DNA from: Cyclobacterium plantarum
Lineage (GTDB): Bacteria; Bacteroidota; Bacteroidia; Cytophagales; Cyclobacteriaceae
Reading direction: 5' to 3'
DNA: 64,000 nucleotides
NCBI RefSeq assembly: GCF_011290685.1
Contig: NZ_JAANYN010000003.1
Span: 124,001 to 188,000 of the forward strand
This document shows positions 19,765 to 36,700 of this stretch, in pieces; position 1 is the first letter of the stretch, and the number at the start of each line of letters is the position of its first letter. The notes under the pieces were generated by a model. It worked only from the letters and a program-made list of their open reading frames with translations, was not told the DNA's origin and did not search any database. The translations under genes were made by a program, and so were the position numbers.

Positions 19765-20754
19765 ATGACTAAGAAAAAAATCGCCCTGATCATGGGCGGC
19801 TATACGGGGGAGGCGGTGGTCTCCGAAAAAAGTGCCGCTATAGTGGCACAACACCTGGACAGGGACCGCTATGAGGTGCACAAAGTGCATATCTATCCGG
19901 GCAACTGGTACCTGGAAGATGAGAAGGGGGAAAAGTATCCGGTAGACCTGAACGGGTTTACAGTCATGAAAAATGGGCAAGAGCTTGCCTTCGATGGTAT
20001 TTTTAACATCATACACGGCACTCCGGGAGAAGATGGTAAACTGGCCGGGTATTTTGATATGCTGGACATCCCCTATACTACCTGTGATGCGCTGACCTCC
20101 TCCATTACCATGAACAAGGGTTATACCAAGGCCATTCTATCGGGTATTGATGACCTGTACATGGCCAGGTCCATGCAGCTTTTTTCCAATCTTCCGGATA
20201 ATGTCCCGATGGTCCTGGATCAACTCAGACTTCCCTATTTCGTCAAACCCAATAATGGCGGCAGCAGCATCGGCATGAGCAAGGTAAAAAAGGAGGAGGA
20301 ACTGGAAGAAGCCTTGAAAAGAGCTTTCAAAGAAGACAAACAGGTGCTGGTGGAAGAATTTGTCACAGGCAGGGAGTTTTCTATCGGGATATACAAAACA
20401 TCGGGGCAGGTTACCGTATTGCCGGCTACCGAAATAATCAGTTCCCGGGAGTTTTTTGATTTTGAAGCGAAATATATCCCCGGAGTATCGGAAGAGATCA
20501 CCCCGGGAAGGATGGATGAAAGGGAAGTGGAAAGGGTAAAGCAGATTGCGGAAAAAGTGTACCTCAAACTCAATTGCAAGGGATCGGTAAGGATGGATTA
20601 TTTTTTGGAAAAAGATACCGGAAAGTTTTATTTTATCGAGATCAATACCGTGCCAGGACAAACCGAAACCAGTTTGATATCCCAGCAAGTCAGGGCTATG
20701 GGGATGAGCCTGAAAGATTTTTATACCGACCTGATCGAAGAAATGTGGAGATGA
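19765..20754 (+). CDS. ddl: D-alanine--D-alanine ligase
   Basis: 329 residues, full length for Ddl. An N-terminal IALIMGGYTGEAVVSEKSA replaces the usual GG.S.E..VS segment; FNIIHGTPGEDGKLAGYFDMLDIPYT, PYFVKPNNGGSSIGMSKV, QVLVEEFVTGREFSIGI and YFIEINTVPGQTETSLI follow, covering substrate, ATP and metal sites. It makes D-Ala-D-Ala for peptidoglycan in the cytoplasm. The pseudouridine synthase gene follows 20 bases later on the same strand, so the two are probably co-transcribed. Confidence 0.95.
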   Translation: MTKKKIALIMGGYTGEAVVSEKSAAIVAQHLDRDRYEVHKVHIYPGNWYLEDEKGEKYPVDLNGFTVMKNGQELAFDGIFNIIHGTPGEDGKLAGYFDMLDIPYTTCDALTSSITMNKGYTKAILSGIDDLYMARSMQLFSNLPDNVPMVLDQLRLPYFVKPNNGGSSIGMSKVKKEEELEEALKRAFKEDKQVLVEEFVTGREFSIGIYKTSGQVTVLPATEIISSREFFDFEAKYIPGVSEEITPGRMDEREVERVKQIAEKVYLKLNCKGSVRMDYFLEKDTGKFYFIEINTVPGQTETSLISQQVRAMGMSLKDFYTDLIEEMWR

Positions 20755-20774
20755 AAAATTGAATCTAGTAACTG

Positions 20775-21497
20775 ATGGACAAGGTCAGAATCAACAAGTA
20801 TTTGAGTGAAGTAGGCTATTGTTCCCGCCGGGCCGCGGACAAGCTGATTGAGGCCGGTAGGGTGACCATCAATGGGCAGGTGCCGGAAATGGGCACTAAA
20901 ATCAGTCCGGGGGATGAGGTCAGGGTAGATGGAGCATTGATTTCAACACCGAAAGAAGCGCATGTGTACATTGCTTTTAACAAACCGGTGGGCATCGTGT
21001 GCACCACAGATACGGAAGGAGAAAAGGACAATATCATTGATTATATCAATCATCCGAAAAGGATTTTTCACATAGGGAGACTGGACAAACCCAGTGAGGG
21101 ACTCATCCTGCTCACCAGTGATGGAGATATCGTGAATAAGATTCTCAGGTCCAAAAACAACCATGAAAAAGAGTACCAGGTAAAAGTACGACAGCCCATT
21201 ACGGTGGATTTTATCCGGCAAATGCGGGAGGGGGTTCCTATTTTGGATACGGTAACTAAGAAATGCAAAGTGGCGCAAACCGGGAAATTCACCTTCAGAA
21301 TCATCCTTACCCAGGGCCTGAACCGGCAGATCCGAAGGATGTGTGATTTTCTGGGCTATGAGGTGGTTGCCCTGAAAAGGACAAGGATCATGCATATCCA
21401 TCTTGACGTTCCTGTAGGCCAATGGAGAGATCTAAGCCCTAAAGAACTGGAGGAATTAAATGCCCTGGTGGCGGATTCTTCCAAAACCTTCGATTGA
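20775..21497 (+). CDS. RsuA/RluB-family pseudouridine synthase
   Basis: 240 residues. The N-terminal S4 domain ([31 protein letters not shown]) binds RNA. The catalytic aspartate lies in [18 protein letters not shown], and [17 protein letters not shown] is the conserved C-terminal motif. The N-terminus and GRLDK motif suit the RluF/RluB/RsuA group that modifies ribosomal RNA; I cannot choose the exact target. Second gene after ddl. No terminator is obvious, though a short hairpin lies at ~21555-21578. Confidence 0.9.
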
Positions 21498-21896
21498 AAG
21501 GTAATTAGTTTATCATTGAGCTAGAAGGTTTATGCTATGGAAAACCGTAGGTTGCCTATCGGAAAATCCGAAGGCATATTAAGTTATTCCCACCTAGTAG
21601 TTGGTTTTTATCTTTAAGCAGAACCAATTTTGCATAAATTGGACTTAATGCAGATTTTTAACCCTAAATTCCCTTTCTTTTTGATTTATCTAAAAATAGC
21701 AGACGTTTTTTTTCTTCTGTTATCCTTATCCATTTAAACAGTCTTTCACCTGTTTTAACCACTGAAAATATGACAAAAACAAAGTTATTTTTAGAACCAA
21801 ATTTAAGGAATTCACATTAATAGTTAATAAAAATTAATTATTATGTATTTTTTAAATCTTTTTGTTGAATTAATTTTAATTTTAGACCCTTTTATT
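21498..21896. other. Intergenic, AT-rich before ncRNA copy 1
   Basis: No open frame of note. From ~21780 it is strongly AT-rich and leads into the TAACTTTG box at 21897-21904. No other structure seen. Confidence 0.5.
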
Positions 21897-21910
21897 TAAC
21901 TTTGAAATAT

Positions 21911-22257
21911 CAATCAAAGACAAACGGTCTTGACCTGGTAAAGAAGCTTGCTTCTGGCAACCGGGATAGTTGACACGATACTGTAGGATGATGAAACCTG
22001 CCTTCGGCAGGCAAGTAAAAAGTAATATTGCTTTTTCATTTTCATCTCCATACAAATTAAGATCACACACTGTAGGGTGATGAAACTGGCAGACATGCCC
22101 TCATGTCTCGGGGGTGGAGGTCACAGAAAAAAGCAAATAGCGAGCTCGTATTTTGCCTAACTGCTCCGTGGAGGTTCGACTCCTTCTCCTACAGCAGGTT
22201 ATTTTGGGTTTATTGTTAATTGACTAAAGCTATGGAACAGTGTTTCATGGCTTTTTT
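21911..22257 (+). ncRNA. Repeated tRNA-like non-coding RNA, copy 1
   Basis: The predicted transcript is ~347 nt. A TAnnTTTG-type -7 box lies at 21897-21904, so the start should be near 21911. Hairpin 1 pairs 21934-21939 with 21960-21965 around an inner AGAAGC/GCTTCT stem. Hairpin 2 pairs 21982-21996 with 22040-22054, with one bulged base on each side, and encloses CCTGC/GCAGG and AAAAAG/CTTTTT stems. A tRNA-like cloverleaf follows at 22071-22193. The 12-bp terminator hairpin (22227-22238 with 22242-22253) contains two pairs that work only as G-U in the plus-strand RNA and is followed by T4. Substitutions among the three copies fall in loops or keep pairing. The minus-strand reading frames change phase between copies, so this is not coding. 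No described family recognised. Confidence 0.8.
22071..22196 (+). other. Class II tRNA-like cloverleaf in ncRNA copy 1
   Basis: The acceptor TGTAGGG pairs with TCCTACA (22187-22193). After T8-G9, ATG/CAT form the D stem around AAACTGGCAGA, which keeps the GG and A typical of tRNA-Leu. The anticodon stem CCCTC/GGGGG encloses ATGTCTC, placing GTC in the anticodon position. The variable region is ~55 nt with GGAG/CTCC and GCAAATA/TATTTTGC stems. The T arm GGAGG-TTCGACT-CCTTC is canonical. The next bases are GCA and CCA is not encoded. A leucine-type body with an Asp-type triplet makes ordinary decoding doubtful. Confidence 0.7.
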
Positions 22258-22420
22258 CTTGCCCAATAAAACCAAAAGATTAGTCATATAGAACACCAAG
22301 AATGCGCAAATTGCTCAATGAATTTGGTGCTTCTCTAAATTTTTTTCAACCGGGTCCCTATTGTGCCTGGGGTGCCTGAGCCTGTCGAAGGCAGCTTGTC
22401 GGACTGAAAAAAATCAGCCT
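22258..22420 (+). repeat. Tail repeat shared by copies 1 and 3
   Basis: This 163-base segment after the terminator is nearly identical to 28128-28290 after copy 3 and is absent after copy 2. It contains a CACCAA (22294-22299) / TTGGTG (22324-22329) hairpin followed by a T7 run, which could be a second terminator. Its end holds one of the GAGCYTGTCGAAGG motifs. Confidence 0.75.
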
Positions 22421-22472
22421 GTCGAAGCCAATCTCTTTCAAACCAGACCTTATGTGGCTGAGCTTGTCGAAG
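22377..22472. repeat. Cluster of short GAGCYTGTCGAAGG repeats
   Basis: Three to four copies of a CTGAGCYTGTCGAAGG-like motif occur near 22377, 22400, 22418 and 22458; similar ones occur at ~28248 and ~28300. This is a common dispersed short repeat in many bacterial genomes. The remaining sequence to 22704 has no recognisable gene. Confidence 0.6.
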
Positions 22473-22704
22473 GTCAATTTCTTTCCATCTATATATTCTT
22501 AAGTCCCCTTTACGCCCAGTCTCTTATCAGAAAAAGTCTTTTTTCTAACAGCCTGTATATACCCTTTTCTATGTGATTACATTTTTTCGTAAAAGCGTTA
22601 AGGCTTTCTTTTTTGCATTCCAGAGCAAAAATTTTAAAAAGATTCGTAACTTAAAACCACCAATAATTGGTACAGGGCTTTGGGTAACTTGATTTTTGAA
22701 TTCC

Positions 22705-23547
22705 ATGCGATTAATTGTCATAATGCTCTTATTTATTCCAGCAATGACTCAGGGGCAGACGGTCTGCACTTTAGAGAGCAGGGATATTCTTGAAGCTTCC
22801 TTCAGTGAGCTTTCACAAACAGCCTATTCAAAAATGTCTATGAATGATTTGATTCTCCACATAGGCAGGCGATTTATGCATACACCCTACGTGGAGAAAA
22901 CCCTGGAATTGCCAGGTGAAGAAAAATTAGTGATTGATTTGCTGGGCCTGGACTGCACCACGTTTTTGGAGACTGTTGTTACCCTGGCCAGGCTTGCCAA
23001 ACAAGAGCGTCTGTCATTTGAGAATTATGAGCAGGAACTTGAATTTGTGAGGTACCGGGACGGTATCAGGAAGGACTATACTTCCCGATTGCATTATTTC
23101 TCAGACTGGATATATGAAAATCAGCTTAAGGGGATTTCAAAGGATATTACTGAGGATATAGGAGGCCGGTTTTATGAAAATACACCCTCCTTTATGTCAG
23201 CCAACCCCCGGTTTTATGCACAGTTGAGCAATCCTGAATTTTTGGTTCAGATAAAAGCTACCGAAGAAGAGATCAAATTGAGAAAATATTTTTTTGTTCC
23301 CAAGGAGGAATTGAGCAGACATGTGGATAAAATCAAGCCCGGAGATCTGATTGCCATCACCACAAGTATGAAAAACCTGGATATCGTGCATGTCGGTTTT
23401 GCCATTGAACAAAATGGGCACATTCATTTATTACATGCAGGAACCCGATCCGGGAAAGTAGAGATTTCTGATATACCTTTGACTGATTATTTGAATGGCA
23501 ATAAATCTCAGTCGGGGATTATGGTGGGTAGGTTAGTCTCACCCTGA
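22705..23547 (+). CDS. Secreted N-acetylmuramoyl-L-alanine amidase-like protein (DUF1460)
   Basis: 280 residues from the ATG at 22705; the open frame reaches a TTG at 22696. The signal peptide ends near MTQGQ. DLLGLDCTTFLETVVTLARL carries the putative catalytic cysteine, and LDIVHVGFAIEQNGHIHLLHAGTRSG carries the histidines of a papain-like (NlpC/P60-related) fold, matching DUF1460. Such proteins are thought to cleave peptidoglycan stem peptides in the periplasm. It stands alone between ncRNA copies 1 and 2. Confidence 0.8.
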   Translation: MRLIVIMLLFIPAMTQGQTVCTLESRDILEASFSELSQTAYSKMSMNDLILHIGRRFMHTPYVEKTLELPGEEKLVIDLLGLDCTTFLETVVTLARLAKQERLSFENYEQELEFVRYRDGIRKDYTSRLHYFSDWIYENQLKGISKDITEDIGGRFYENTPSFMSANPRFYAQLSNPEFLVQIKATEEEIKLRKYFFVPKEELSRHVDKIKPGDLIAITTSMKNLDIVHVGFAIEQNGHIHLLHAGTRSGKVEISDIPLTDYLNGNKSQSGIMVGRLVSP

Positions 23548-24026
23548 GTCCAGCCCTATTTGCGTATTATTATAGGTCTTCTTTTTTAAATTTCTTCAGG
23601 AGTTATACTTAACAAAAAAACAGTTCCAATTAGGTCATCGTCGGGGTGTAAACCTGGTATTTGGCCGAATGGACCAAAGTCGCCCGGCACTCACGGCAGT
23701 CCGCAGGAACAGGTAAAGGTCATTTCGATCTTGCTGTCATTTTTCGAAGAGCTTTTGCCCACGCTCCGGATCGGATGGCTTACCTGGCATACCGATGACG
23801 ATTTTTTCACAAAAATACTTCGAGCTCAGGTTCGGAAACAAATAATACCACCAAACCCAAAAGGGAAATATTACCTGGTTCCGACTGTCAGTTTTAATAT
23901 TTGCATCAGAATAATTCTTCCATAAATCTATATTACATATTATTTAATAAAAGACCGATATAATTAAAAATAACATAAAAATAAATAATTTTTATAATTT
24001 TATTTTTAATAGGTCAATCTTTTTAT
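23548..24026. other. Intergenic before ncRNA copy 2
   Basis: 23636-23870 has mixed composition that could be old gene debris, but I cannot assign it to a family in any frame. From ~23920 the sequence is AT-rich and runs into the TACCTTTG box at 24027-24034. Confidence 0.4.
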
Positions 24027-24040
24027 TACCTTTGACATAT

Positions 24041-24386
24041 CAAACAAAGACAAACGGTCTTGATCTGGTAAAGAAGCTAGCTTCTGGTACCGGGATATTT
24101 GACACGATACTGTAGGATGATGAAACCTGCCTTCGGCAGGCAAGTAAAAAGTGATACAGCTTTTTCATTTTCATCTCTATACAAATTAAGATCACACAAT
24201 GTAGGATGATGAAACTGGCAGACATGCCCTCCTGTCTCGGGGGTGGAGATCACAGGAAAAAGCAAATAGCGAGCTCGTATTTTGCCTAACTGCTCCGTGG
24301 AGGTTCGACTCCTTCTCCTACAGCAGGTTATTTTGGGTTTATTGTTAATTGACTAAAGCTATGGAACAGTGTTTCATGGCTTTTTT
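24041..24386 (+). ncRNA. Repeated tRNA-like non-coding RNA, copy 2
   Basis: The predicted transcript is ~346 nt with the -7 box TACCTTTG at 24027-24034. Hairpin 1 pairs 24064-24069 with 24089-24094; the closing pair is U-G here, C-G in copy 1 and U-A in copy 3. One base is deleted in the internal loop of this hairpin. In hairpin 2 a C-to-T change replaces G-C by G-U. The cloverleaf is at 24200-24322 and its seventh acceptor pair is A-U instead of G-U. The terminator is 24356-24367 with 24371-24382, then Ts. Similarity to the other copies stops just after the terminator, which sets the 3' border of the unit. Confidence 0.8.
24200..24325 (+). other. Class II tRNA-like cloverleaf in ncRNA copy 2
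   Basis: Same fold as in copy 1. The acceptor TGTAGGA pairs fully with TCCTACA (24316-24322). The anticodon loop is CTGTCTC, again with GTC in the anticodon position. The base before the acceptor is A rather than C, so the extra pair possible in copies 1 and 3 is absent. Confidence 0.7.
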
Positions 24387-24391
24387 CTTGC

Positions 24392-24413
24392 ACCAAAAAA
24401 CTAATTTTTTGGT
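24392..24413. repeat. 9-bp inverted repeat after copy 2
   Basis: Arms 24392-24400 and 24405-24413 are perfect reverse complements with a 4-nt loop, directly after the copy 2 terminator. The following bases (24411-24442) are of the GGTCACAGAG..CACAAAG simple-repeat type seen widely in this phylum. No gene is visible to 24580. Confidence 0.55.
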
Positions 24414-24580
24414 CACAGAGATCACGCAGAGGTCACAAAGAATTTTTATAAAGGGGTACGCATGGTCGCTTGCCCAGCTTGTCAATGGTTAAGGGTCAAT
24501 CACCCTGTCCACTACTCAGCGAAAATGGATGTTACAAAAAACCAGAAATAGCTGTTGCTTCATGGCGTTGAAAAATAAAA

Positions 24581-24608
24581 ATACCGGAAACGGAGGTTCC
24601 CGGTATTC
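24581..24608 (-). terminator. Hairpin terminator for the HAD phosphatase gene
   Basis: ATACCGG (24581-24587) pairs with CCGGTAT just upstream of 24607, and A/T-rich sequence follows on the minus strand. It lies about 60 bases beyond the stop of the minus-strand gene. Confidence 0.6.
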
Positions 24609-24665
24609 AAAAATTCATTTTAATATGCCTTGAATAAGGCAAAAATCAATAAAAAATAAACAACT

Positions 24666-25484
24666 TTATCCATGGCTTAAAACCATCTCCCGATCAATGA
24701 TGCTGTCAAAAATTTCAGGGTTTATCAAATCATTGATGCTTTGAATGATATGGTCAGGTCTGTAGGCAAACGCTTTAAGGTCTTCTTTTTTGGTGGAACC
24801 TGTCAGGGTCAATACGGTTTTAAATCCCATCTGCACTCCGCCCAAAATATCTGTTTCCATGGTATCCCCGATCATGATGGTATTGGCCGACCTGGTTTCC
24901 AGTTCGGCCTTGGCAATCCGCATCATCACAGGGCTTGGCTTGCCTGCGCTAAAGGCTTTTTTGCCGGTAGCCAGTTCGATCATCGATACAAATGCGCCAC
25001 AACCAGAGCGAATGGAATCATTTGAACTTGGACAATAGGGGTCCAGGTTGGTAGCTATTAATTTGGAACCTCTCATGACCATGTTGATGGCTTTATCCAC
25101 CGATTCCAGCATAATGGTTCTACCTTCCCCGATCACCACGTAATCGGGCTCATCATCCACAATGGAATAGCCGTTTTGGTGTAGGGCAGTAAGCAGTCCT
25201 CCCTCGCCGATCACATAGGCCGTTCCGTTAGGTTTTTGGGAGGCCAGGTATCTGGCCGTGGCGATGGCACAGGTGAATATATGTTTTTCCCCTACCTCAA
25301 TACCCATCCGGCTTAATTTCGCTACCACATCCCTGCAGTTTCTTTGGCTGTTATTGGTAAGGAACAGGAATGGAAAATCCTCCCTGAGAAGTTTCGTTAT
25401 AAATTCCTTTGCTCCGGGGATCAATTCACCTCCACGATAAATCACCCCATCCATATCGATCAAAAATCCTATATCTTTTTTCAT
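24666..25484 (-). CDS. HAD-IIA family phosphatase (NagD-like)
   Basis: 272 residues from the ATG at 25482-25484; the frame extends to a TTG at 25511. FLIDMDGVIYRGGELIPGA is HAD motif I (DxDGV), FLTNNSQRN is motif II, KPSPVMM contains the motif III lysine and TIMIGDTMETDILGG is motif IV. The C2 cap between motifs places it with NagD/PGP-like phosphatases acting on nucleotide or sugar phosphates in the cytoplasm. A lone gene between ncRNA copy 2 and a pectate lyase gene. Confidence 0.9.
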   Translation of the reverse strand: MKKDIGFLIDMDGVIYRGGELIPGAKEFITKLLREDFPFLFLTNNSQRNCRDVVAKLSRMGIEVGEKHIFTCAIATARYLASQKPNGTAYVIGEGGLLTALHQNGYSIVDDEPDYVVIGEGRTIMLESVDKAINMVMRGSKLIATNLDPYCPSSNDSIRSGCGAFVSMIELATGKKAFSAGKPSPVMMRIAKAELETRSANTIMIGDTMETDILGGVQMGFKTVLTLTGSTKKEDLKAFAYRPDHIIQSINDLINPEIFDSIIDREMVLSHG

Positions 25485-26197
25485 TTCAAGTTCATTTTTA
25501 GTGAAACTCAAAATTACAATATAGGTAATTTTAATGCAAATTTATTATTTTATTTTTAACAAAAATAACATAAAATTAACATTTAATTATCAAAAACACC
25601 TTTATATTGAGAAAACTATTTTTGTTGGTGTCCTCGATTTTGGATTACCACCAAACAACAAAGTTCATACGTTCCTCTCCCGCTCAATCTTTTTCAATCC
25701 TTTTTAATCCTACGCCATCCTACCGCACTGCCCGGTTTTGTGCCGATCCCGCCAATTTTCGTAAAGAATGGAGAGCTTCGATTATTTTAGTTTTATATTG
25801 AGAAAGTCTAACTGCTCAAATCAGAAGTAAATTTTTCTCCATTTTTTTTGATCTTACCCCAATTTTTTTCCACAAATCCCACTACGCCCTTCGTTCCTCA
25901 TCCGTCGCTGTGACTGAAACTCTTATGTCCCCATGTCAGATATTCGTCCTCGAATCCCCCACTCCCCAAATCTCACCATTCTTCTGTCTTTTAGTCTCCA
26001 ACTCAAAAACCTTCGTGCCCTCCGTGGCTCTTTGCGTCCTTTGTGACTCAAAAGTCTTACCACCTCAGACCAAAAATCGTCCCCAATACTCCCCCTCTCT
26101 CCGTCACTTCGTCTCCACCGAAACAATCGTCCTCAAATCCTCCTCTACCTCAGTATCCCCGTCCCTTAGTCTATTATTCTCCAAGTCCCTCCGTCCC
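25485..26197. other. Intergenic with a pyrimidine-rich block
   Basis: The sequence is AT-rich to ~25620. From ~25860 to 26225 the plus strand is strikingly rich in C and T and poor in G. It includes the CTTCGTGCCCTCCGTGGC type simple repeat that many Cytophagales carry. Open frames here have no protein-like pattern and I do not accept them as genes. Confidence 0.5.
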
Positions 26198-27304
26198 TCA
26201 ATCCCCCATCCTTCTTTTCCACTCCGGATAGTCACTTTCCAGCAGCTCTTTTGCATAGGGCCCGAGATAGCTATAGCCCACCCGCCTTTCGTGTTCTATC
26301 TCGTGTAAGGCATACCGTACCACGCTGTCTCTGCCCACAAACATGGGGCGGTTGGTGCCAATTTCGTAAAACCTGGCCCACAAGGGTCCTGCAGTTTCGT
26401 CTTTCACCACGATTCTATCATATCCCCGGGGTAAAGTTTCATCTTCTTTCTGTACCAACTTTATTCCTTCCAGTTTCACTACTTCAAACCAGGCTATCGC
26501 ACTTTCTATGGCTTGGACCACTTTCGGCTCAGGATTTTCTATGGCCATCAGGTACCTGACAATTCCCACACTTTCTGAGCCACTGATGGAGGGCAATTCA
26601 TAGGCCCTGGCCTTCGCCGGGCTGAGGTCATCCTTATCATACTGGGCACACCAGGCAGTAAGGGTTCCATCTACTTTGATTTGGGTTCTCAAAATAATTT
26701 CCAGCCCTTTTTCAATGGCTTTTTGGGCCCGTTGTTTTCGATCCGCATCTACGAAATCATAGGTTTTCTTACCATCAGCCACATTCCTGAGCAGTTGCAT
26801 GACTTGAATCATGGCCCCGTCATTAAAAGTAATGTGTTCATAATATCCCTCTCTGATGGGATAGTATTGAGGCCAGCCTCCATTTTCATACTGGGCATCC
26901 ATCATGTAATCTAGGGCTTTAAAAACTGCCTGACTAAACCTGGGATCCTTGGTCTCACGGTAAGTTTTTGATAAAAATGCTATTTGAATAAAGCCAGCAT
27001 CATTGTCAAGCGTTGCACCCATATTGGATGATTTATCCTTCCTGAGTCGACTTTTTTCTTCCTCACTGAGCTGCACGGACATGTCAATGTTTTTGTACCA
27101 TCCACCAATGTCCTTTTGGTGCAGGAGCATGTTTTCAGCGATTCTTATCGCTTCTTCACTCTCATACCAGGTATCAGGTTGTTCATTGATTCTTTTCCAG
27201 GGCACTTTTTCTATGTTTTGGGCAAAAGTGCTCATGGCCTGGACCATAAAAAGCAACAATAAACTGATTTTTATGTAAAGATTATTTTTGGGTAAAGAAT
27301 TCAT
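26198..27304 (-). CDS. pelA: Pectate lyase, PL10 type
   Basis: 368 residues from the ATG at 27302-27304. The signal peptide ends STFAQ. The sequence has the PL10 hallmarks: GGWYKNIDM, GATLDNDAGFIQI, DYMMDAQYENGGWPQYYP, ITFNDGAMIQVMQLL, and TAWCAQYDKDDLSPAKARAYELPSISGSES, which includes the calcium and substrate residues. It would cleave polygalacturonate by beta-elimination outside the cytoplasm. No SusC/D pair or other polysaccharide genes are adjacent, so it is not in a recognisable utilisation locus here. Confidence 0.9.
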   Translation of the reverse strand: MNSLPKNNLYIKISLLLLFMVQAMSTFAQNIEKVPWKRINEQPDTWYESEEAIRIAENMLLHQKDIGGWYKNIDMSVQLSEEEKSRLRKDKSSNMGATLDNDAGFIQIAFLSKTYRETKDPRFSQAVFKALDYMMDAQYENGGWPQYYPIREGYYEHITFNDGAMIQVMQLLRNVADGKKTYDFVDADRKQRAQKAIEKGLEIILRTQIKVDGTLTAWCAQYDKDDLSPAKARAYELPSISGSESVGIVRYLMAIENPEPKVVQAIESAIAWFEVVKLEGIKLVQKEDETLPRGYDRIVVKDETAGPLWARFYEIGTNRPMFVGRDSVVRYALHEIEHERRVGYSYLGPYAKELLESDYPEWKRRMGD

Positions 27305-27421
27305 GGAAATTTTGGTTTTCAATGGGGAAAGTTCCAGGTTCCGTCATACAACTACATCAGTAAAATAGCAGAAATAAAACGAGAAAACACAAATTATTAA
27401 AAGTAACTTTATCCAAGGTTA

Positions 27422-27601
27422 TTGTGGTCCAATGCCATTGAGGAAAATAGTATTACGATATACAATGCTGCAGCTTCCACCAAGACCCTAAAAATAATGA
27501 TGGGTTTCGTAGCTGTTGGAGGTCCGCTGTTGCTATTGTACAGTTATTTTGTCTACAGGACATTTTGGGGTAAGGTGGATTCGAATGCTGAAGGAAATTA
27601 G
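27422..27601 (+). pseudogene. cydB: C-terminal remnant of cytochrome bd oxidase subunit II
   Basis: The frame from 27422 to TAG at 27599-27601 gives about 59 residues including SITIYNAAASTKTLKIMM, then GPLLLLYSYFVYRTFWGKV. This is the last transmembrane segment and tail of CydB. There is no upstream cydB sequence and no cydA, so it is a truncated relic next to ncRNA copy 3. Confidence 0.75.
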
Positions 27602-27780
27602 ACCCTTGGGATCACCCATTGATTACTCCATTAAAAAGTTTACAATCAGGAGCATTTTTTATAGCCTATTAATTACATTTTATTCAATAAAATAAGTTGT
27701 ATAATATAAATAATATATAAATTAATCATTTTTATTATTTTATTTTTATTAAACCAACTTCTTTATTACCTTTGGAATAT

Positions 27781-28127
27781 CAAATAAAGATAAAAGGTCT
27801 TGATCTGGTAAAGAAGCTTGCTTCTGGCAACCGGAATATTTGACACGATACTGTAGGATGATGAAACCTGCCTTCGGCAGGCAAGTAAAAAGTAATATTG
27901 CTTTTTCATTTTCATCTCCATACAAATTAAGATCACACACTGTAGGGTGATGAAACTGGCAGACATGCCCTCCTGTCTCGGGGGTGGAGATCACAGGAAA
28001 AAGCAAATAGCGAGCTCGTATTTTGCCCAACTGCTCCGTGGAGGTTCGACTCCTTCTCCTACAGCAGGTTATTTTGGGTTTATTGTTAATTGACTAAAGC
28101 TATGGAACAGTGTTTCATGGCTTTTTT
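27781..28127 (+). ncRNA. Repeated tRNA-like non-coding RNA, copy 3
   Basis: The predicted transcript is ~347 nt with the -7 box TACCTTTG at 27767-27774. Hairpin 1 pairs 27804-27809 with 27830-27835 and is closed by U-A, the compensated form of copy 1's C-G. The cloverleaf is at 27941-28063. The terminator is 28097-28108 with 28112-28123, then Ts. It is closest to copy 1 downstream, where both share the 163-base tail, but in the variable arm and promoter it resembles copy 2. That mosaic pattern fits gene conversion among the copies. Confidence 0.8.
27941..28066 (+). other. Class II tRNA-like cloverleaf in ncRNA copy 3
   Basis: The acceptor TGTAGGG pairs with TCCTACA (28057-28063), the anticodon loop is CTGTCTC, and the T arm is identical to the other copies. 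One T-to-C change in the variable region (TTTTGCCC) lies in an unpaired part. Confidence 0.7.
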
Positions 28128-28290
28128 CTTGCCTAATAAAACCAAAAGATTAGTCATATAAAACACCAAGAATGCGCAAATTGCTCAATGAATTTGGTGC
28201 TTCTCTAAATTTTTTTCAACCGGGTCCCTATTGTGCCTGGGGTGCCTGAGCCTGTCGAAGGCAGCTTGTCGGACTGAAAAAAATCAGCCT
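28128..28290 (+). repeat. Tail repeat after copy 3
   Basis: Same 163-base segment as 22258-22420 with only a few differences. After 28290 the similarity ends and the sequence to ~28600 has no recognisable gene. Confidence 0.75.
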
Positions 28291-28615
28291 AAAACGGCAG
28301 CTCGTCGAAGGCCAATCTCTTTTTCCTCCCCTCAAAATTCCCAGATCTCCCCGCCCATTCGTTCCGTAGTCTCTTCTTTATCAGTCCCGTAACCCATTTC
28401 CACAATTCACTATACAACACTTTTTCACCATAAAACTGGTATAGCAGGAGAAAAGAGAGTAACTTCTGAAGGGAATCAGTGATACACCGGTTGAGGAAAT
28501 TTGAACAATGCTTTGGTAAATATAAAGTGAAAGGACATGATCAGTTAGGCTTCATTGACCATTCGAATTCAAGTATTGGTTGGTATTGTTTTACTCCTAA
28601 CTGTTAAACAAGCAG

Positions 28616-28768
28616 CAGCCCAAAGGATTTATTCTGCTGATGCATATCGGTGCCGGTTCGGGCAGAATGGATAAATTCTATTTCCAAATCTCGTCATTTC
28701 TGACCTTGATACGGGAAATGGGTTATGACTGGGTGTCTCTGGAAGAACTTCTGAAACCTATTCCATGA
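28616..28768 (+). pseudogene. C-terminal remnant of a polysaccharide deacetylase
   Basis: The frame 28616-28768 encodes KGFILLMHIGAGSGRMDKFY, then LTLIREMGYDWVSLEELL, and a stop. This matches the end of NodB-type polysaccharide deacetylases (LHIG..., RTDKFY, GYEFV...EL). No catalytic N-terminal part is present, so it is a relic. Confidence 0.6.
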
Positions 28769-28869
28769 TATTTCTCATGTTTATTGCTGAGAAGTCTTTG
28801 TATATTCTTTTTATAAAGGCTTTACATTTAAGTCAATAAACCAAAGGGAAAAAGTTTAATAAAACATTC

Positions 28870-29640
28870 ATGGTCATGGAGATAAAAGACAAGATTGCAT
28901 TGATTACCGGAGGAGCTGGCGGAATAGGCCTGGCGACTGCCAGGTTGTTTTTGGAAGAAGGAGCCAAAGGAGTAGCCATAATAGATTACAGTAAGGATAA
29001 TTTAAAGGAGGCAGAGAAGGTTCTCGGTACTGACAAACTGATGTACATACAGGCAGATGTCAGTCAGGCTGAGGAAGTAAAGAATTATACCAATAAGGTA
29101 AAAACAGAATGGGGAAGAATTGACATCTTGTTTCTGAATGCCGGCACGGAGGGAGTGGTAAAAACCATGGAGCATTATCCGGAAGAGACATTTGATCAGG
29201 TTATTGGGGTAAATGTAAAAGGGGTCTGGCTGGGTATGAAATATGCCTTTCCCATTATGAAAACAGACGGGGGAGGTTCCGTCATCATCACTTCCTCGGT
29301 TGCCGGATTGAGGGGTACGGCTCAGGTAAGTGCCTATGTGGCCAGCAAGCATGCCACTGTAGGTTTGATGCGTGTAGGTGCATTGGAAGGGGCCCCTGAT
29401 AAGATCCGGGTAAATACCATACATCCCTCTCCTGTTGACAACCGCATGATGCGGTCTCTTGAAGAGGGCTTTGCGCCAGGAATGGGAGATACGGTAAAGG
29501 AAAATTTCACCAAAATGATTCCTCTGGGCAGGTATGCCTCCAATGAAGATATCGCAGATCTGGCATTGTTTCTGGCTTCTGACAAAAGTAAGTTTATAAC
29601 CGGCGCTACCTATGTCATCGATGGCGGTTTTACGATCTGA
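28870..29640 (+). CDS. SDR family oxidoreductase
   Basis: 256 residues. The TGGAGGIGLATARL motif binds NAD(P) and DYSK after the second strand suggests an NAD(H) preference. NAGTEG, SSVAGLRG and the YVASKH triad give the catalytic Ser-Tyr-Lys. The ending FLASDKSKFITGATYVIDGGFTI is classical. The substrate is not evident; it belongs to the broad 3-oxoacyl reductase/sugar dehydrogenase-like group. Single gene, convergent with the ion channel gene and sharing a terminator hairpin. Confidence 0.9.
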   Translation: MVMEIKDKIALITGGAGGIGLATARLFLEEGAKGVAIIDYSKDNLKEAEKVLGTDKLMYIQADVSQAEEVKNYTNKVKTEWGRIDILFLNAGTEGVVKTMEHYPEETFDQVIGVNVKGVWLGMKYAFPIMKTDGGGSVIITSSVAGLRGTAQVSAYVASKHATVGLMRVGALEGAPDKIRVNTIHPSPVDNRMMRSLEEGFAPGMGDTVKENFTKMIPLGRYASNEDIADLALFLASDKSKFITGATYVIDGGFTI

Positions 29641-29646
29641 CTAACC

Positions 29647-29678
29647 GGAGTTCCCGGTATTGCTATTCCGGGGACTCC
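29647..29678. terminator. Bidirectional terminator between convergent genes
   Basis: Arms 29647-29657 and 29668-29678 pair over 11 positions with one G-U. The hairpin overlaps the last codons of the minus-strand channel gene and ends the SDR gene on the plus strand. Confidence 0.6.
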
Positions 29679-30496
29679 AGCTTGGTACCACATTTCCGGC
29701 AGTAGATGGCATCCGGGCTGTGCTTTTGCAGGGAACAGCCATGACAAATTTTAAATTGATGGCGATCTGACTTTTCACTTTTGTTTTTGGCATGGGTCAA
29801 CTCTGAAGTGACTATTCCGGTGGGCACCGCAATAATGGCATAACCAAGCAGCATGATAATGGATGCCATAAACTGACCCAAATCGGTGTTGGGAGAAATA
29901 TCTCCATAACCAACGGTGGTTAGTGTAACAATGGCCCAGTACATGGCCCTGGGAATAGAAGTATAGCCGTTTTCCGGACCTTCAATGATATACATGACTG
30001 AGCCCATAACCAACACGATAGTCAAAACCGATCCCACAAATATCTGGATTTTGGCCCGGCTGCTTTTCAGGGCGCTTATCAGAAGGGAAGCTTCTCTAAG
30101 GTATTCTGGTAATTTCAGAATCCTTAGAATTCTCAAAAACCGCAATGCCCTAACCACCATTAAGTACTGGCTTTGAACCAAAATTAAACTCAAGAAGGCA
30201 GGTAAAATAGCCAACAAGTCCACAATACCATAAAAACCAAAGATATACCCCGGCTTATCATTGCTCAGCCATATCCTCAATAAATACTCTACACTAAATA
30301 CGATGGTAAAAAACCACTCCAGCCAATACAAAAATGTGCCATAGTTTTGATGGATATCCTGAACAGAATCCAGGATAACGACCAACACGCTTAAAAGAAT
30401 TAAAGCCAAAAGAATTAAATCGAAATTTTTAGATGCGCTGTCGTCAGATTCATAAACAATATGCGCCAATCGTTTTTTTGAGGGGAGGAATGTCAT
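29663..30496 (-). CDS. Voltage-gated K+ channel-like ion transporter with zinc ribbon
   Basis: 277 residues from the ATG at 30494-30496. Six membrane segments; S4 reads RALRFLRILRILKL with regularly spaced arginines; the pore has TLTTVGYGD, the K+ selectivity filter. After S6 the cytoplasmic tail contains CHGC and CRKC pairs, a likely zinc ribbon. It would conduct K+ across the inner membrane and sense voltage; the zinc ribbon may mediate assembly. No operon partner. Confidence 0.9.
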   Translation of the reverse strand: MTFLPSKKRLAHIVYESDDSASKNFDLILLALILLSVLVVILDSVQDIHQNYGTFLYWLEWFFTIVFSVEYLLRIWLSNDKPGYIFGFYGIVDLLAILPAFLSLILVQSQYLMVVRALRFLRILRILKLPEYLREASLLISALKSSRAKIQIFVGSVLTIVLVMGSVMYIIEGPENGYTSIPRAMYWAIVTLTTVGYGDISPNTDLGQFMASIIMLLGYAIIAVPTGIVTSELTHAKNKSEKSDRHQFKICHGCSLQKHSPDAIYCRKCGTKLESPE

Positions 30497-30784: not shown

Positions 30785-33700
30785 TTGAATTTGTCTGATG
30801 TACTGAAAACAGAATTTCATCTATCCTTTTCCAAAGGTAATCCAATTACCGTGATCGATTTGTTTCAGCAGCAGGTGAAATCAAATCCACGAAAAACGGC
30901 CATTGCCGATGGAAAGCGATTGATTTCTTACGAAGAGTTGGATGTTATATCCAACCGGATAGCTGTATTTTTGCAAAAGTCAATCGCAAGCGATCAGTGC
31001 ATTGTACCGGTTTGTATGCAGCCTACCTTTGAATTGGTGGCTACCCTGCTTGGTGTATTGAAATCCGGACTGGCTTTTGTACCCCTTCACCCGGATTGGC
31101 CGGAAAACCGAAAGCGTGATATTGTGAAGCAGGTAGCTGCCAAATGGGTTCTTTCCGGTGAACCGGAAAACGATTTTGGTCAAACAAAACATAGGCAGTT
31201 TTCGGTATTATCCTGGAAACAATTTTCATCAGGGCAGATAGAAGTCAACGAATTTCCGGAGCCATTCCTTGCAGGAAACCTGGCCTATGTCATGTATACT
31301 TCAGGCAGTACCGGTGCTCCAAAAGGGGTAATGGTTGGTCATTCCCAACTTTATCATGCTACCCAAAAAAGAATCAATCACTATGGTTGCAGTCCGGAAT
31401 TATTACTGATACCTGCTCCCAGTTTTGATGCGGCTCAGGCTGCCATATTCTGGTCATTGTGTACAGGTGGAAAGCTTACCATGGCCAAAAAGGCATCCCT
31501 TCAAGATGTCGAAATTATTCCTGCTCTGCTACGGGGTACAGACACCTTGCTATGTGTACCCTCTTATTACAGGTTCTTGCTGGAAGAAGGCTTAATGGCT
31601 GACCTGAATATGGAAAGGGTAATATTGGGAGGAGAAAGTTTGCCAAAGGAACTTGCCGATTCCCATTTTCACCATCAGCCCAAAGCGCAGCTTTTCAATG
31701 AATATGGACCAACGGAAACCACCATTTGGGCTACAGTGGCATCCATAAAGCCTGATGATAAAGTGATTTCGATTGGTAAGCCAATCCCCGGTGTAAGCTG
31801 TCATGTCCTTGGAGAGGATGGAAGAGAAGTTCCATCGGGAGGTATCGGTGAGCTCTTTATTGGTGGAGACCAGGTGGCAAACGGCTATTGGATAGATAAA
31901 AGCCTTACTTCTCAAAAATTTATTCCAGACCCCTATACTGATAAAAAAGGTGCAACATTGTATGCCACTGGGGATCTGGTCTGCCAGCTTCCGGATGGAT
32001 GTTATTTGTTTGAGGGAAGAAAAGACAGACAGTTTAAATGGCAGGGTAACCGGATAGATCCTTCAGAAATAGAGCAGGCCTTTCTGGAAACAGGTGAAAT
32101 CAAGGAAGTATTGGTGAGCCCCTTTACCCAGAATGATGGCATACCTGATCAAATTGCAGCTTTCGTAATTCCAAATGGTTTGTCTGACCTATCATTGTTG
32201 AGGGAAAAATTAAAAACAAAACTGCCTGCCTACCTGCTTCCTTCTAAAATCGAAACAGTAGCTGCTTTTCCCCTTACAGAAAATGGAAAAGTGGATCTGC
32301 CTGCATTGTTATCGGCACTCCGGCAGTCAGGCTCTTCATCAAATTTGCCGGTTTTTACTGATGTGCTGCAGGAAAGGCTGTACCAATCCTTTAGCCAGAC
32401 TTTGGGACAAACTAATTTTGGCTTGTCTGAGAACTTTTTTGAAATGGGAGGCAACTCTCTGGCTGCCATGCGTCTGCTGTCAATTTTAAAAAACAAGCTG
32501 GATTTGACGGTTGACATAAAAGACATTTTTGATTTTCCCACTGTTTCGGGACTGTATCATCATATCAAGCATCAAGTGGGGAAAGAAAAGGTCAATTCCC
32601 TATCTGAGCTTAAAGCCGATTTACCCATGGTGTCTCCTGCCCAACAGTCACTTTGGCTAATTGATCACATGGAAGGATCAAAGGCTTATCATTTACCTGT
32701 TGCATACCAACTATCGGGAGACATCAATCCAGGGCTTTTGGAAAATGCCATCCGGGAGATTATCCGGAAACATCAGGTATTGAGAACCACCTTTCAGGGA
32801 ATCGACCAGGTTTCATTTAAATCTGAACAGGAGTGGAATTTGACCCTGATCAATAAAACAGAAGAAATTTATTCCCGGGAACAATTTTTCAAAGCCTTTA
32901 TCCCTTTTTCCAGACGGACCTTTGACCTTGCAGCCGATTTTATGATCAGAGCTCAATTGGTCAGCTTTCAAGATCAGGTACATGTGCTGGGGCTGGTTTT
33001 CCATCACATTGCTTTTGATGATTGGTCCATGAGAATCTTTCTCAGAGAGCTGTCTGAAAATTATAAATTTCTTGAAAAGGGTATTTTTCCTGATGCTTCT
33101 TCTGCTGTATTTACAGGCCATGCACAGTACCAGCAGGGTATCATGGAAAGCAGCCGAAGTAATGAGGGCTTGGATTATTGGCGGCAAAAATTGTCAGGCC
33201 TGGAAAAACTAAGACTACCACGGGATTTTCCTTTCAGGGAAAAAAATGGTCATGAGGCAGGAGTATTTCGTTTTACCTGGGATAAGGAACTCCTCAGACC
33301 TTTGGCCGGATTTGGAAAAAGCCATGATGCTACACCCTTCATGACCTTACTGGCAGTATTTAAGGTATTGCTTTACCGCTACAGTAATCAGACAGATATT
33401 TGTGTAGGCACCACAGTGGTGGATAGAAGTTTGCCCGGAACCGAAGGGACAATAGGATATTTTATCAATACTTTACCCCTTAGAGCTGCTTTGGACCCGA
33501 ATTCCTCCTTTGAACAATTTTTGACGTCCATTAGGAATGAGGTGCTGTTTGCCTTAAAGTATGCCCATGTACCCTTTATTAAGCTTGTATCAAGCATTCC
33601 AGTATCTCAACAAAAGGACCATAAACCCTTTTTCGACCTGATGTTTGTCATGCATGAAGGGTCTGAGGACCCCAAAATGCCGGAATTTCCAGGGATCGTC

Positions 33701-36700
33701 TCCCAGCGGCTGAATGTTGATCCGGAAAGCTCAAAATTTGCCATTACCATTACCCTTGTTGAAGAAAATGGGGGGATAAAGGGACATGTTGAATTTGACA
33801 AGGCCATGTTTTTGCCTGAGACGATTCAAAGAATGGTGGCCCATTTTCAGGAGTTGGTCCTGCAGCTGCCAAAAGCCCCGGACAAGCCGGTTAAAAATTG
33901 CAATTTACTTTCAGCCAATGAATTGAACCAGCTTTCAGGAAGGGATACCTATCAGGAAGCCGCTTTCCATACGGCTTTTTTTGAGCGTTTTGAAAAGCAG
34001 GTTAATCTTCGTCCCAATGCTACAGCCATTAAAATTGAAGGGGAGGAAATCTCCTTTCAGAACCTTAATACTCGGGCATTGCAGGTTGCAGACCTGTTAA
34101 TGGAAAGAGGAGTCAGGCAGGGTGAGTTAGTGGCCCTGTTGGTTCAGAGGGGATTGGATATGGTGGCTGGGATGCTGGGTATTTGGAAGGTGGGCGCAGC
34201 ATATGTTCCGGTGGATCCAAATTACCCACAGGAAAGGATTAATTATATTTTAGCGGATAGTGCTGCCAGTTTTTTATTGACTGATACCCTTTCAGAAGGC
34301 AAGTCTAAGGATTCAGGAAAACAATTGATTGTCAACCTGGATAAGGAAAAGGTTTCGGAAGATTTTTCTGCCAGGTCTTATCCGGTAACCACTTTAGATA
34401 GGCTGGCCTATGTGATTTATACCTCAGGAAGTACCGGTAAGCCAAAGGGAGTGAGCTTGACACAGGCCAATCTGGCCGCATTCCTGGACTGGTGTGGCAG
34501 GGAGTTTTCCCTGGATGATTTTGAGGTAATATATGCGGTAACGTCCATGTGTTTTGACTTATCGGTTTTCGAATTGTTTTTCCCTTTGGCCTTTGGGAAG
34601 CCTGTCAGGATACTTCCCGATGCGCTGCATATTCCTGCATTCCTGGAAAGCGACAATAAGATTTTGATCAATACCGTTCCCAGTGTGGTGCAAAAACTGG
34701 TAGAGGCCAGGATGGACTTCAACCGGGTTGGCTTACTGAACATGGCAGGGGAGCCAGTACCAGCCAAACTTTTGGAAAAGCTTGATTGGAGAGGACTGGT
34801 AGTAAGAAACCTTTATGGTCCTACGGAGGATACTACCTATTCTACCTGTCAAATCCTTGCGCCAGGTGAACCGGTTTCAATAGGCAGACCCATTGCGGGT
34901 AGTTTTGCCTATATTTTAAATCAGGATTTGATGCCTTGCCCTATCGGTGTACCCGGGGAAATCTACCTTGGTGGGCATGGTGTAGCTGCAGGATACCTTA
35001 ACCAACCAGGTTTTACGTCTGAGAAATTTATTCCTGATCCTTTTGGTTTGGAAGACAGCCCTCCCATTTATAAAACAGGAGATCTGGGTGCCTGGACAAA
35101 GGAGGGGAAAATTGATTTTCTTGGCAGACTGGATAATCAGGTCAAACTGAATGGTCACCGTATCGAGCTGGATGAAGTTTCTTTAGTGCTTCAATCCCTG
35201 AAAGGGGTAAAAAATGCTGTGGCTGTGTTACAAACCGGAAATACCGAAGAAAAACAGCTTGTAGGTTTTGTGGAGTCTCATGAAGAGTTGATTGAGAAGG
35301 ATTTGTTGGTAGCCCTATCCGATCGTCTGCCCAGATACATGGTACCTTCCAGGGTACAAATTTTGGAAAAATTACCCCTGACCCCCAACGGGAAAATAGA
35401 CCGGAAGGTGCTGGAGACTGTGAAAGTGAATCCAGGCTCCTTGGATCAAAGCAGACCTTTTGAAGCACCTTCAAGTGTTTTGGAGAATGATTTACTGGAA
35501 ATATGGAAAAAAGTGCTCCAATTCGATGGTCTTGGAGTGAAGGATGATTTCTTTGACTATGGCGGAAATTCCTTATTGGCCGTCAGGCTTATTGGCCGAA
35601 TCAAGGAATCTTTGGGTCTTGACATCAGCATCAGTGAGCTGTTCGGTCATCCTTCCGTAAGACAAATAAGTACTTTGATTGAGCGAAAGGGACTTAAGGA
35701 AGGGGAATCGGAACGCATTCCATCGCAAAAACCCAGGCCTGAATTTATTCCCTTGTCTTTTGGACAAGAAAGTCTGTGGCTGACGGATAAACTGGAAGGA
35801 TCCGTACAGTACCATATTCCCATTCTGCTGAAAATCAAAGGAGCTGTATCTTCTGGTTTGCTAATGGACAGCATCCGAAGCATCATGGAACGTCACGAGA
35901 TTCTCAGGACGGTAATTAAAGAAATGGATGAAGACACCTGGCAGGAGGTTATGCCTGTTTTGGGATGGGAGATGACCGTTGATCACCAGGCAGGAAACAG
36001 TGGAAATCTGGATTTGCAAATGGCAGAATTTCTGGATCGACCCTTTGACCTTGGAAACGATTTTATGCTTCGGGCCAGGCAATTTATTACTGGAGAAAAT
36101 GAATGTCTGTTGATGGTGGTGGTGCACCACGTTGCCTTCGACGGCTGGTCCATTCCTTTATTTATCAAAGAACTTTTTGCCCTTTTAAAAGCAGATCTTT
36201 CTGGAGAGAGCCTGCTTTTACCCCACCTGAAAATACAATATGCAGACTATGCCCTGTGGCAAAGAAATAAGTTTACCAGAACGACATTAGAAAAAAAACT
36301 GGATTACTGGAAAGAGCATTTAAGGGGCGTCAAACCGATTAAACTTCAGGAGCCATTTAGTAAACCTGGAAGAAGAAACAATGTAGGAGAAACATTTGAC
36401 TTCCGGATTGGGCTTGCCCAAAAGCGTGAAATGCTTGAATTGGGAAAAAAATTAGGGCTTTCCCCATTTATGATTTTACTGGCTGTCTTTAAATCCCTGC
36501 TGGAGAGACTGAGCGGTCAACAGGATATCTGTGTGGGCACAGCTTTGGGGGGTAGAAGAAAGGCTGAAATCGAGGCCCTTTTGGGCTATTTCGTAAATCC
36601 GCTTCCTATTCGTACCTGTTTGAATCCCGATAGTACGTTTACAGAAATACTTTTGCAGGTGAAGCAAAAAGCACTGGAAGCCCATGAACATCAAGATGTT

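Follow-up and report, generated by a model that had tools for sequence, protein, structure and literature searches.

A tRNA-like RNA gene tripled in Cyclobacterium plantarum belongs to a family spread through Bacteroidota and may be an aspartate-accepting tRNA that does not decode

Introduction

Three near-identical copies of one sequence, each of about 346 nucleotides (nt), lie within a 64,000-nt stretch of the Cyclobacterium plantarum genome (contig NZ_JAANYN010000003.1, positions 124,001 to 188,000), which is called the window below. An earlier note on this DNA took them for copies of a structured RNA gene of no described family that contains a transfer RNA (tRNA)-like domain, and the locus raises the question of what kind of RNA this is and what purpose it could serve. 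The view of the note is borne out, as there is no match in Rfam and covariation is present in further homologues. Where the note took the whole transcription unit as the element, the conserved core is the 123-nt tRNA-like part and not the 346-nt whole. RNAs of tRNA-like form with functions other than translation are already known (PMC3399842). The reading favored here, at a rough probability of 0.42, is that the sequence specifies an aspartate-accepting tRNA that would not decode and that would be under the control of an Lrp-type protein.

Results

A cloverleaf with a giant variable arm

The 123-nt core defines a family of cloverleaf RNAs with a 7/5 layout, a body resembling that of tRNA-Leu and a giant, structured variable arm. 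Twenty-six diverse units were aligned by MAFFT, with the cloverleaf and variable-arm structure set by hand. Under this structure 94.9% of the cells are paired. Changes affecting both sides of a pair number 61, compared with 22.4 ± 3.5 when the alignment is shuffled and no more than 21 when the structure is slid. The covariation in additional homologues on which the earlier note had made its claim depend is also found in a larger alignment of 134 distinct rows, fitted with a covariance model. Here, 582 cells keep their pairing although both bases have changed; shuffling gives 149.8 ± 15.5 such cells and slid controls at most 102. These rows include one ordinary tRNA-Leu (L167) and one truncated unit (L169); the 132 units that are left when both are subtracted all have G18G19, A14 and TTCGA. 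The acceptor and T helices are 100% paired.

Within the window, covariation among the three copies is weak evidence and the persuasive signal comes from the wider family. The series C-G, U-G and U-A, noted earlier for the closing pair of hairpin 1, is present in the aligned copies. The change described in an acceptor pair does keep the pairing, but it is one-sided only, from G-U to A-U.

The Cyclobacterium units that were read have GAGCUC at the tip of the variable arm, where many other units have GGGUUGACCAC, a motif common to the arms of L084, L088, L098, L103, L106, L318 and L320–L322. Dimerization via palindromic arm tips (GAGCUC, UGAUCA) was considered and dropped as evidence, the excess of palindromes being mild at best and the sequences related. 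Watson-Crick palindromes of at least 6 nt are present in 50 of 84 units (44.0 ± 4.2 in mononucleotide shuffles) and those of at least 8 nt in 26 of 84 (14.5 ± 3.7).

An independent gene found well beyond Cyclobacterium

The layout of each copy in the window is that of a separate RNA gene that has a promoter box and a terminator to itself. As described earlier, a TAnnTTTG box, a promoter box of Bacteroidota, precedes every copy and a terminator lies at its 3′ end, with a terminator hairpin that is identical in all three. Relative to copy 3, the other copies are 97% and 96% identical over approximately 358 nt, and the alignment of copy 2 ends just past the terminator, as had been reported. Copies 1 and 3 have a further 163 nt downstream in common, with 2 mismatches.

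Across 163 distinct arrays, TAnnTTTG occurs within 150 nt upstream of 126 (23.6 ± 4.4 in shuffles), and 93 of 135 boxes are 15–60 nt ahead of the unit. Terminator-like sites follow within 150 nt in 137 of 162 arrays, compared with 36–46 in shuffles. Single units make up 128 of the arrays, and the other 35 have two (21 arrays), three (11), four (one) or five units (two). These counts take in loci that were fetched with a pattern in which GTCTC was fixed and which gave at least 120 stretches. The boxA sequence is a mark of stable-RNA operons; 19 of 227 units have a boxA-like GTTCTTT in the 80 nt that precede them (1.8 ± 1.2 in mononucleotide-shuffled sequence), and it stands directly before units in L098, L099, L101, L102 and L107–L109.

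When copy 3 was used in BLAST (E ≤ 0.001), 47 of 59 relatives were matched, some only partially, and from these matches the last domain, the tRNA-like unit, emerges as the constant part. All 12 Cyclobacterium genomes contain 3–9 units each, exactly one of which has a longer arm. In the family to which the window belongs, sampled with one genome per genus, the RNA is present in 49 of 60 genomes. The covariance-model search that had been suggested for Cytophagales finds the RNA in that group and far past it, and in the phylum 31 of 296 genomes score at least 80 bits (a hand count; the raw tally of 275 takes in ordinary tRNAs). Two of the 31 (G330 and G338) lie outside the class of the window. 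Named records with the RNA, drawn from other searches, include Chitinophaga, Saprospiraceae, Lewinella, Fulvivirga, Flammeovirga, Thermonema, Reichenbachiella and one Ignavibacteriales genome. Much of Bacteroidota, as well as this Ignavibacteriales genome, thus has the core conserved as a gene of its own, in some cases as tandem units.

The scores in the phylum fall into two groups, one at 82–148 bits and the other at 63 bits or less, with a single match between them at 69.7 bits (G048). Nine stretches were fetched to check the lower group; one (L272) is not a match place and the remaining eight are all tRNA-Leu, six of them GAG. The intermediate match is a relative (L309, 1504–1580) that has no long variable arm, keeps the U1-A72 acceptor and G73, has the loop CUAUCUC and is called tRNA-Asp(ATC) by ARAGORN.

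A local triplication with near-identical copies, together with a copy number that varies in the genus, could also be the work of a mobile or selfish tRNA-derived repeat, resembling a miniature inverted-repeat transposable element (MITE) or a short interspersed element. This is hardly credible in view of the conservation with covariation over many genera and the recurrent arrangement of promoter, terminator and Lrp-type gene. The earlier note had allowed for a match to the end of an insertion sequence or MITE: there are no inverted pairs of at least 40 nt around the copies (window 20000–30000), shorter lengths lying outside the search. In addition, a blastn search of 50,697 phage and 72,556 plasmid records gave no match to the window sequence, although a diverged unit could escape this search.

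Five viral contigs from IMG/VR carry a unit, at 105–121 bits. L320 is phage-like in gene content, with Mom-family and PD-(D/E)XK genes, and L319, with an endolysin gene, is phage-like as well; ordinary tRNA genes surround the unit in L321 and L322. L321 may be host DNA, given a TonB receptor-like gene recognized by eye. The presence of units in viral contigs, two of them among tRNA genes, and the variable number per Cyclobacterium genome would suit a decoy, used by hosts and phages alike, that draws off nucleases cutting the anticodon loop or other toxins aimed at tRNA. Such a role is very unlikely, as it leaves the Lrp linkage, G73 and C38 unexplained, and the exactly one longer-armed copy in 12 of 12 Cyclobacterium genomes is more housekeeping-like.

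Close to the RNA in L320 (4942–9377) are two genes of the Mom family for DNA modification, a catalytic domain resembling class II synthetases and a glutamine synthetase gene. An aspartyl link through the synthetase-like gene (PF00152) was considered and set aside, since relatives of this gene are found in cyanophages too, blastn matched the window RNA to none of the phage records, and the neighborhood may be chance. Further tRNA-like sequences, whose variable arms are also very long, are present at L319 4584–4708 and 9976–10114 and at L322 3168–3302; they score 37–43 bits and are not reported by ARAGORN.

Bases of aspartate identity are mostly kept and bases for decoding are not

Conservation of the loop was determined from 84 distinct units, which came via BLAST and the model and not from the motif fetch. 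G73, G34, U35, C36 and C38 are found in 84, 83, 84, 84 and 84 of these, respectively, and C74 and the pairs U1-A72 and G2-C71 are likewise invariant. Position 33 is U in 65 units, G in 10, A in 6 and C in 3, while position 37 is a pyrimidine in 82 and a purine in two. U33 and a purine at 37 are the bases required by the ribosome and are usual in decoding tRNAs. The units have the 7/5 cloverleaf and the D- and T-loop motifs of a canonical decoding tRNA but do not consistently keep its U33 and purine 37.

The strong determinants of aspartate identity are G73, G34, U35, C36 and C38 (PMC9976931). In Escherichia coli, G2:C71 and G10 also contribute (PMC6523644), and bacterial tRNA-Asp has G1-C72 (PMC9976931). 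The ordinary tRNA-Asp in the genome of the window has the loop CUGUCAC and G73. As the bases read by aspartyl-tRNA synthetase (AspRS) are kept and those needed by the ribosome are not, charging of a non-decoding tRNA with aspartate is judged to be the most likely mechanism.

Seryl-tRNA synthetase (SerRS) also reads G73 and a long variable arm. The RNA could then be a class II tRNA that accepts serine, as allo-tRNAs do, and is recognized by its arm and G73 with the anticodon ignored. Allo-tRNAs are reported to have the class II shape and non-cognate anticodons that include GUC, and allo-tRNA-like polycistrons exist (PMC7609411). Still, this is decidedly improbable: allo-tRNAs are 8/4 or 9/3 and are reported from Clostridia, Proteobacteria and Acidobacteria, whereas the unit is 7/5 with a Leu-like body and is found in Bacteroidota and Ignavibacteriales. 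Furthermore, SerRS provides no reason for U35, C36 and C38 to be invariant while U33 varies.

Relation to known RNAs

Rfam 15 gives no matches in the window at gathering thresholds, so that the match to a known RNA family that would have told against the earlier note is absent from that release. At relaxed E-values there are sub-gathering matches only, in copy 1, and in nine other loci three such matches, all outside the units. The Rfam tRNA model finds 37 tRNAs elsewhere in the genome and none in the window. ARAGORN detects no tRNA and no transfer-messenger RNA (tmRNA) in the window, and in 33 other loci it recognizes no unit by default; when long inserts are allowed, one unit (L055) is called a tRNA-Arg with an insert. 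In the literature, titles and abstract openings among the matches listed contain no description of such an RNA, most subscription journals being outside the coverage. As far as these searches show, the RNA family and its coupling to Lrp are undescribed.

The closest likenesses are to two ordinary tRNAs. The body and D arm match tRNA-Leu(GAG) from the genome of the window, and with tRNA-Leu (GAG) of Bacteroidota the unit shares the D-arm motif (AAACTGGTAGACA vs AAACTGGCAGACA), the class II layout and the T loop. It differs in having GUC instead of GAG, G73 instead of A73, U1-A72 and a much longer structured variable arm, and in not keeping U33. In common with tRNA-Asp (GUC) are the anticodon bases, C38, G73 and G2-C71, whereas the long variable arm, U1-A72, a base 10 that is mostly not G and the pyrimidine at 37 are different. 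Similar to the family here, tmRNA is an independent stable RNA with a tRNA-like end. However, tmRNA has a tag-coding region and a tRNA-like domain without an anticodon arm, and the unit has a full one. The family is not allo-tRNA, tmRNA or canonical decoding tRNA.

A divergently transcribed Lrp/AsnC-type neighbor

Clustering of 20 fetched neighborhoods gives an Lrp/AsnC-type gene as the most widely shared neighbor, present in 14, followed by SUF-like genes (8) and an acyl-CoA-ligase-like gene (7); names were given by reading the sequences by eye and not from Pfam. Once duplicate loci and arrays with less than 900 nt upstream were dropped, 142 distinct arrays were left, pattern-fetched loci among them. 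The Lrp/AsnC-type gene is upstream in 64 of these, divergent (head-to-head) in 64 of 64, with a gap of 120–251 nt, and within 900 nt it is found in no other orientation among the 142. The RNA-adjacent proteins are about 50–72% identical to one query. Genome G055, first scored as RNA-less, has a unit at 101.8 bits, 146 nt from its Lrp gene. The remaining neighbors vary and include the SUF operon, pyrE, ribAB and aspartokinase, among others.

In the genome of the window, the closest Lrp homologue (60%) is located elsewhere, and GGTTCRA, GGCAGMC and GTCTCG are absent from the 700 nt upstream of it, as they are upstream of the closest homologues in G021 and G060. Because this homologue sits apart, with no RNA motifs upstream, the RNA seems to have changed place and gained copies in Cyclobacterium.

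The divergent Lrp-type gene would also suit a trans-acting regulatory RNA, uncharged, in which the tRNA fold is a stable scaffold and the exposed GUCUC loop or the variable-arm tips pair with target mRNAs or bind a protein. At the core of the loop, GUC-U-C hardly changes even though position 33 varies, which fits this role. A precedent is tRNAOther of Bacillus cereus, a pseudo-tRNA within a regulatory RNA reported to alter gene expression; it is a tRNA-like element in a larger transcript and is not for translation (PMC3399842). It is reported beside a genomic island of one strain, while the unit is a multi-genus, Lrp-type-linked family. The regulatory role is unlikely overall, since it does not predict the invariant G73, C74 and G2-C71 or the intact D- and T-loop motifs, and the tandem arrays suggest processing into separate tRNA-like pieces.

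The copies in the window and their leader

The features of the three copies are collected in Table 1.

Table 1. Positions of the RNA gene copies and their parts in the window
Feature	Position	Strand	Basis
RNA gene copy 1	21911..22257	+	alignment
RNA gene copy 2	24041..24386	+	alignment
RNA gene copy 3	27781..28127	+	alignment, folding
TAnnTTTG promoter box, copy 1	21897..21904	+	motif
TAnnTTTG promoter box, copy 2	24027..24034	+	motif
TAnnTTTG promoter box, copy 3	27767..27774	+	motif
Intrinsic terminator, copy 1	22226..22257	+	hairpin and T-run
Intrinsic terminator, copy 2	24355..24386	+	hairpin and T-run
Intrinsic terminator, copy 3	28096..28127	+	hairpin and T-run
tRNA-like unit, copy 1, U1 to G73	22071..22194	+	covariance model, 143.7 bits
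tRNA-like unit, copy 2, U1 to G73	24200..24323	+	covariance model, 148 bits
tRNA-like unit, copy 3, U1 (27941) to G73 (28064)	27941..28064	+	covariance model, 145.3 bits
D arm, copy 3, tRNA-Leu-like, AAACTGGCAGA loop	27950..27966	+	
Anticodon arm, copy 3	27968..27984	+	
Anticodon loop, copy 3, CUGUCUC, positions 32–38; GUC at 27975–27977	27973..27979	+	
Giant structured variable arm, copy 3	27986..28037	+	covariation
T arm, copy 3, TTCGA loop	28040..28056	+	covariation
Leader domain, copy 3, near-copy of the tRNA-like 5′ strand at its start, self-closable	27852..27924	+	

The fold of copy 3 is better than those of 100 of 100 shuffles (z −3.17), and in this minimum-energy fold the 5′ strand of the tRNA-like part pairs with the leader and not with its own 3′ strand. 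The first 16 nt of the leader block are the start of the tRNA-like part over again, except that copies 1 and 3 differ at a single A/G position. The leader may be the remnant of a degenerate upstream unit, and extra 5′ domains, the leader included, are seen in Cyclobacterium copies only. The RNAalifold consensus of seven window-type copies is mostly invariant, with 4 of 98 pairs changed on both sides; the leader-on-tRNA helix has no two-sided change and three of its pairs are broken in one row. In the most diverged copy (L115), the changes suit the leader's own stem when read by eye. A leader switch, in which the 3′ strand of the leader would leave its own partner and pair with the 5′ strand of the tRNA-like part in some Cyclobacterium copies, gave mixed energies and is not used as a mechanism.

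Elsewhere in the same genome, L006 1501–1589 and L007 1501–1562 (G000:C6:65744 and C11:515969) have only the 3′ trailer and terminator of the RNA in common with it, L006 having the T-arm half too, which suggests that the genome contains more RNAs of this kin, whole or degenerate. Downstream of copies 1 and 3 (window 22340–22480 and 28220–28310), elements of GCCTGTCGAAGG type recur in the flank and resemble, by eye, an interspersed repeat of the genome. Farther downstream of the copies (window 30785–39691) is an open reading frame of 2968 residues that resembles, by eye, a non-ribosomal peptide synthetase.

Discussion

Charging and biological role are inferred here from the sequence, and the proposed mechanism is as follows. 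The transcript would be trimmed by the normal tRNA-processing enzymes and gain CCA, after which the AspRS of the cell would charge it with aspartate. Loss of U33 and purine 37, together with the bulky arm, would bar the RNA from decoding. The charged RNA would then be a dedicated non-ribosomal aspartyl-tRNA, either as aspartate donor to a candidate transferase or as a read-out of aspartate or AspRS status. Its level would be set by the divergent Lrp-type protein as an amino-acid-responsive regulator, and the window would carry a form that has been tripled locally and has an additional leader domain.

Several points weigh against an aspartate-accepting RNA under Lrp-type control. The pair 1-72 is U-A in 84 of 84 units where G1-C72 is expected, G10 is present in only 12 of 84, and base 34 drifts, being C in L096 and A in L308 and L309 (the latter two outside the 84). 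AspRS is a class II enzyme that approaches tRNA from the variable-arm side, where a large arm could clash. For full-length window-type RNAs the predictions do not clearly favor the cloverleaf: RNAalifold of the seven copies pairs both acceptor strands with the leader, and a fold in which the acceptor is forced is worse by 0.7–3.5 kcal/mol in four of six copies, and better than the leader-on-tRNA fold by 0.4–1.1 kcal/mol in the other two. Finally, the 900 nt upstream contain no Lrp gene in 78 of the 142 arrays, those in the genome of the window included, and G021 and G060 keep a close Lrp homologue but the RNA was not found in them.

Extended to the phylum, the proposal becomes that of a tRNA with a Leu body and Asp identity that does not decode, serves non-ribosomal use of aspartate or reports on charging, is Lrp/AsnC-controlled and is carried by phages too. 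A system of this breadth is possible but doubtful.

A stand-alone RNA family of such spread among environmental bacteria, with no Rfam entry, is notable by itself. If the RNA is charged and does not decode, it would be a broad bacterial addition to the few known tRNAs that are reserved for work other than translation. It would then also point to an unknown enzyme or sensor that depends on Asp-tRNA, and would give a conserved Lrp-type regulator a function to test.

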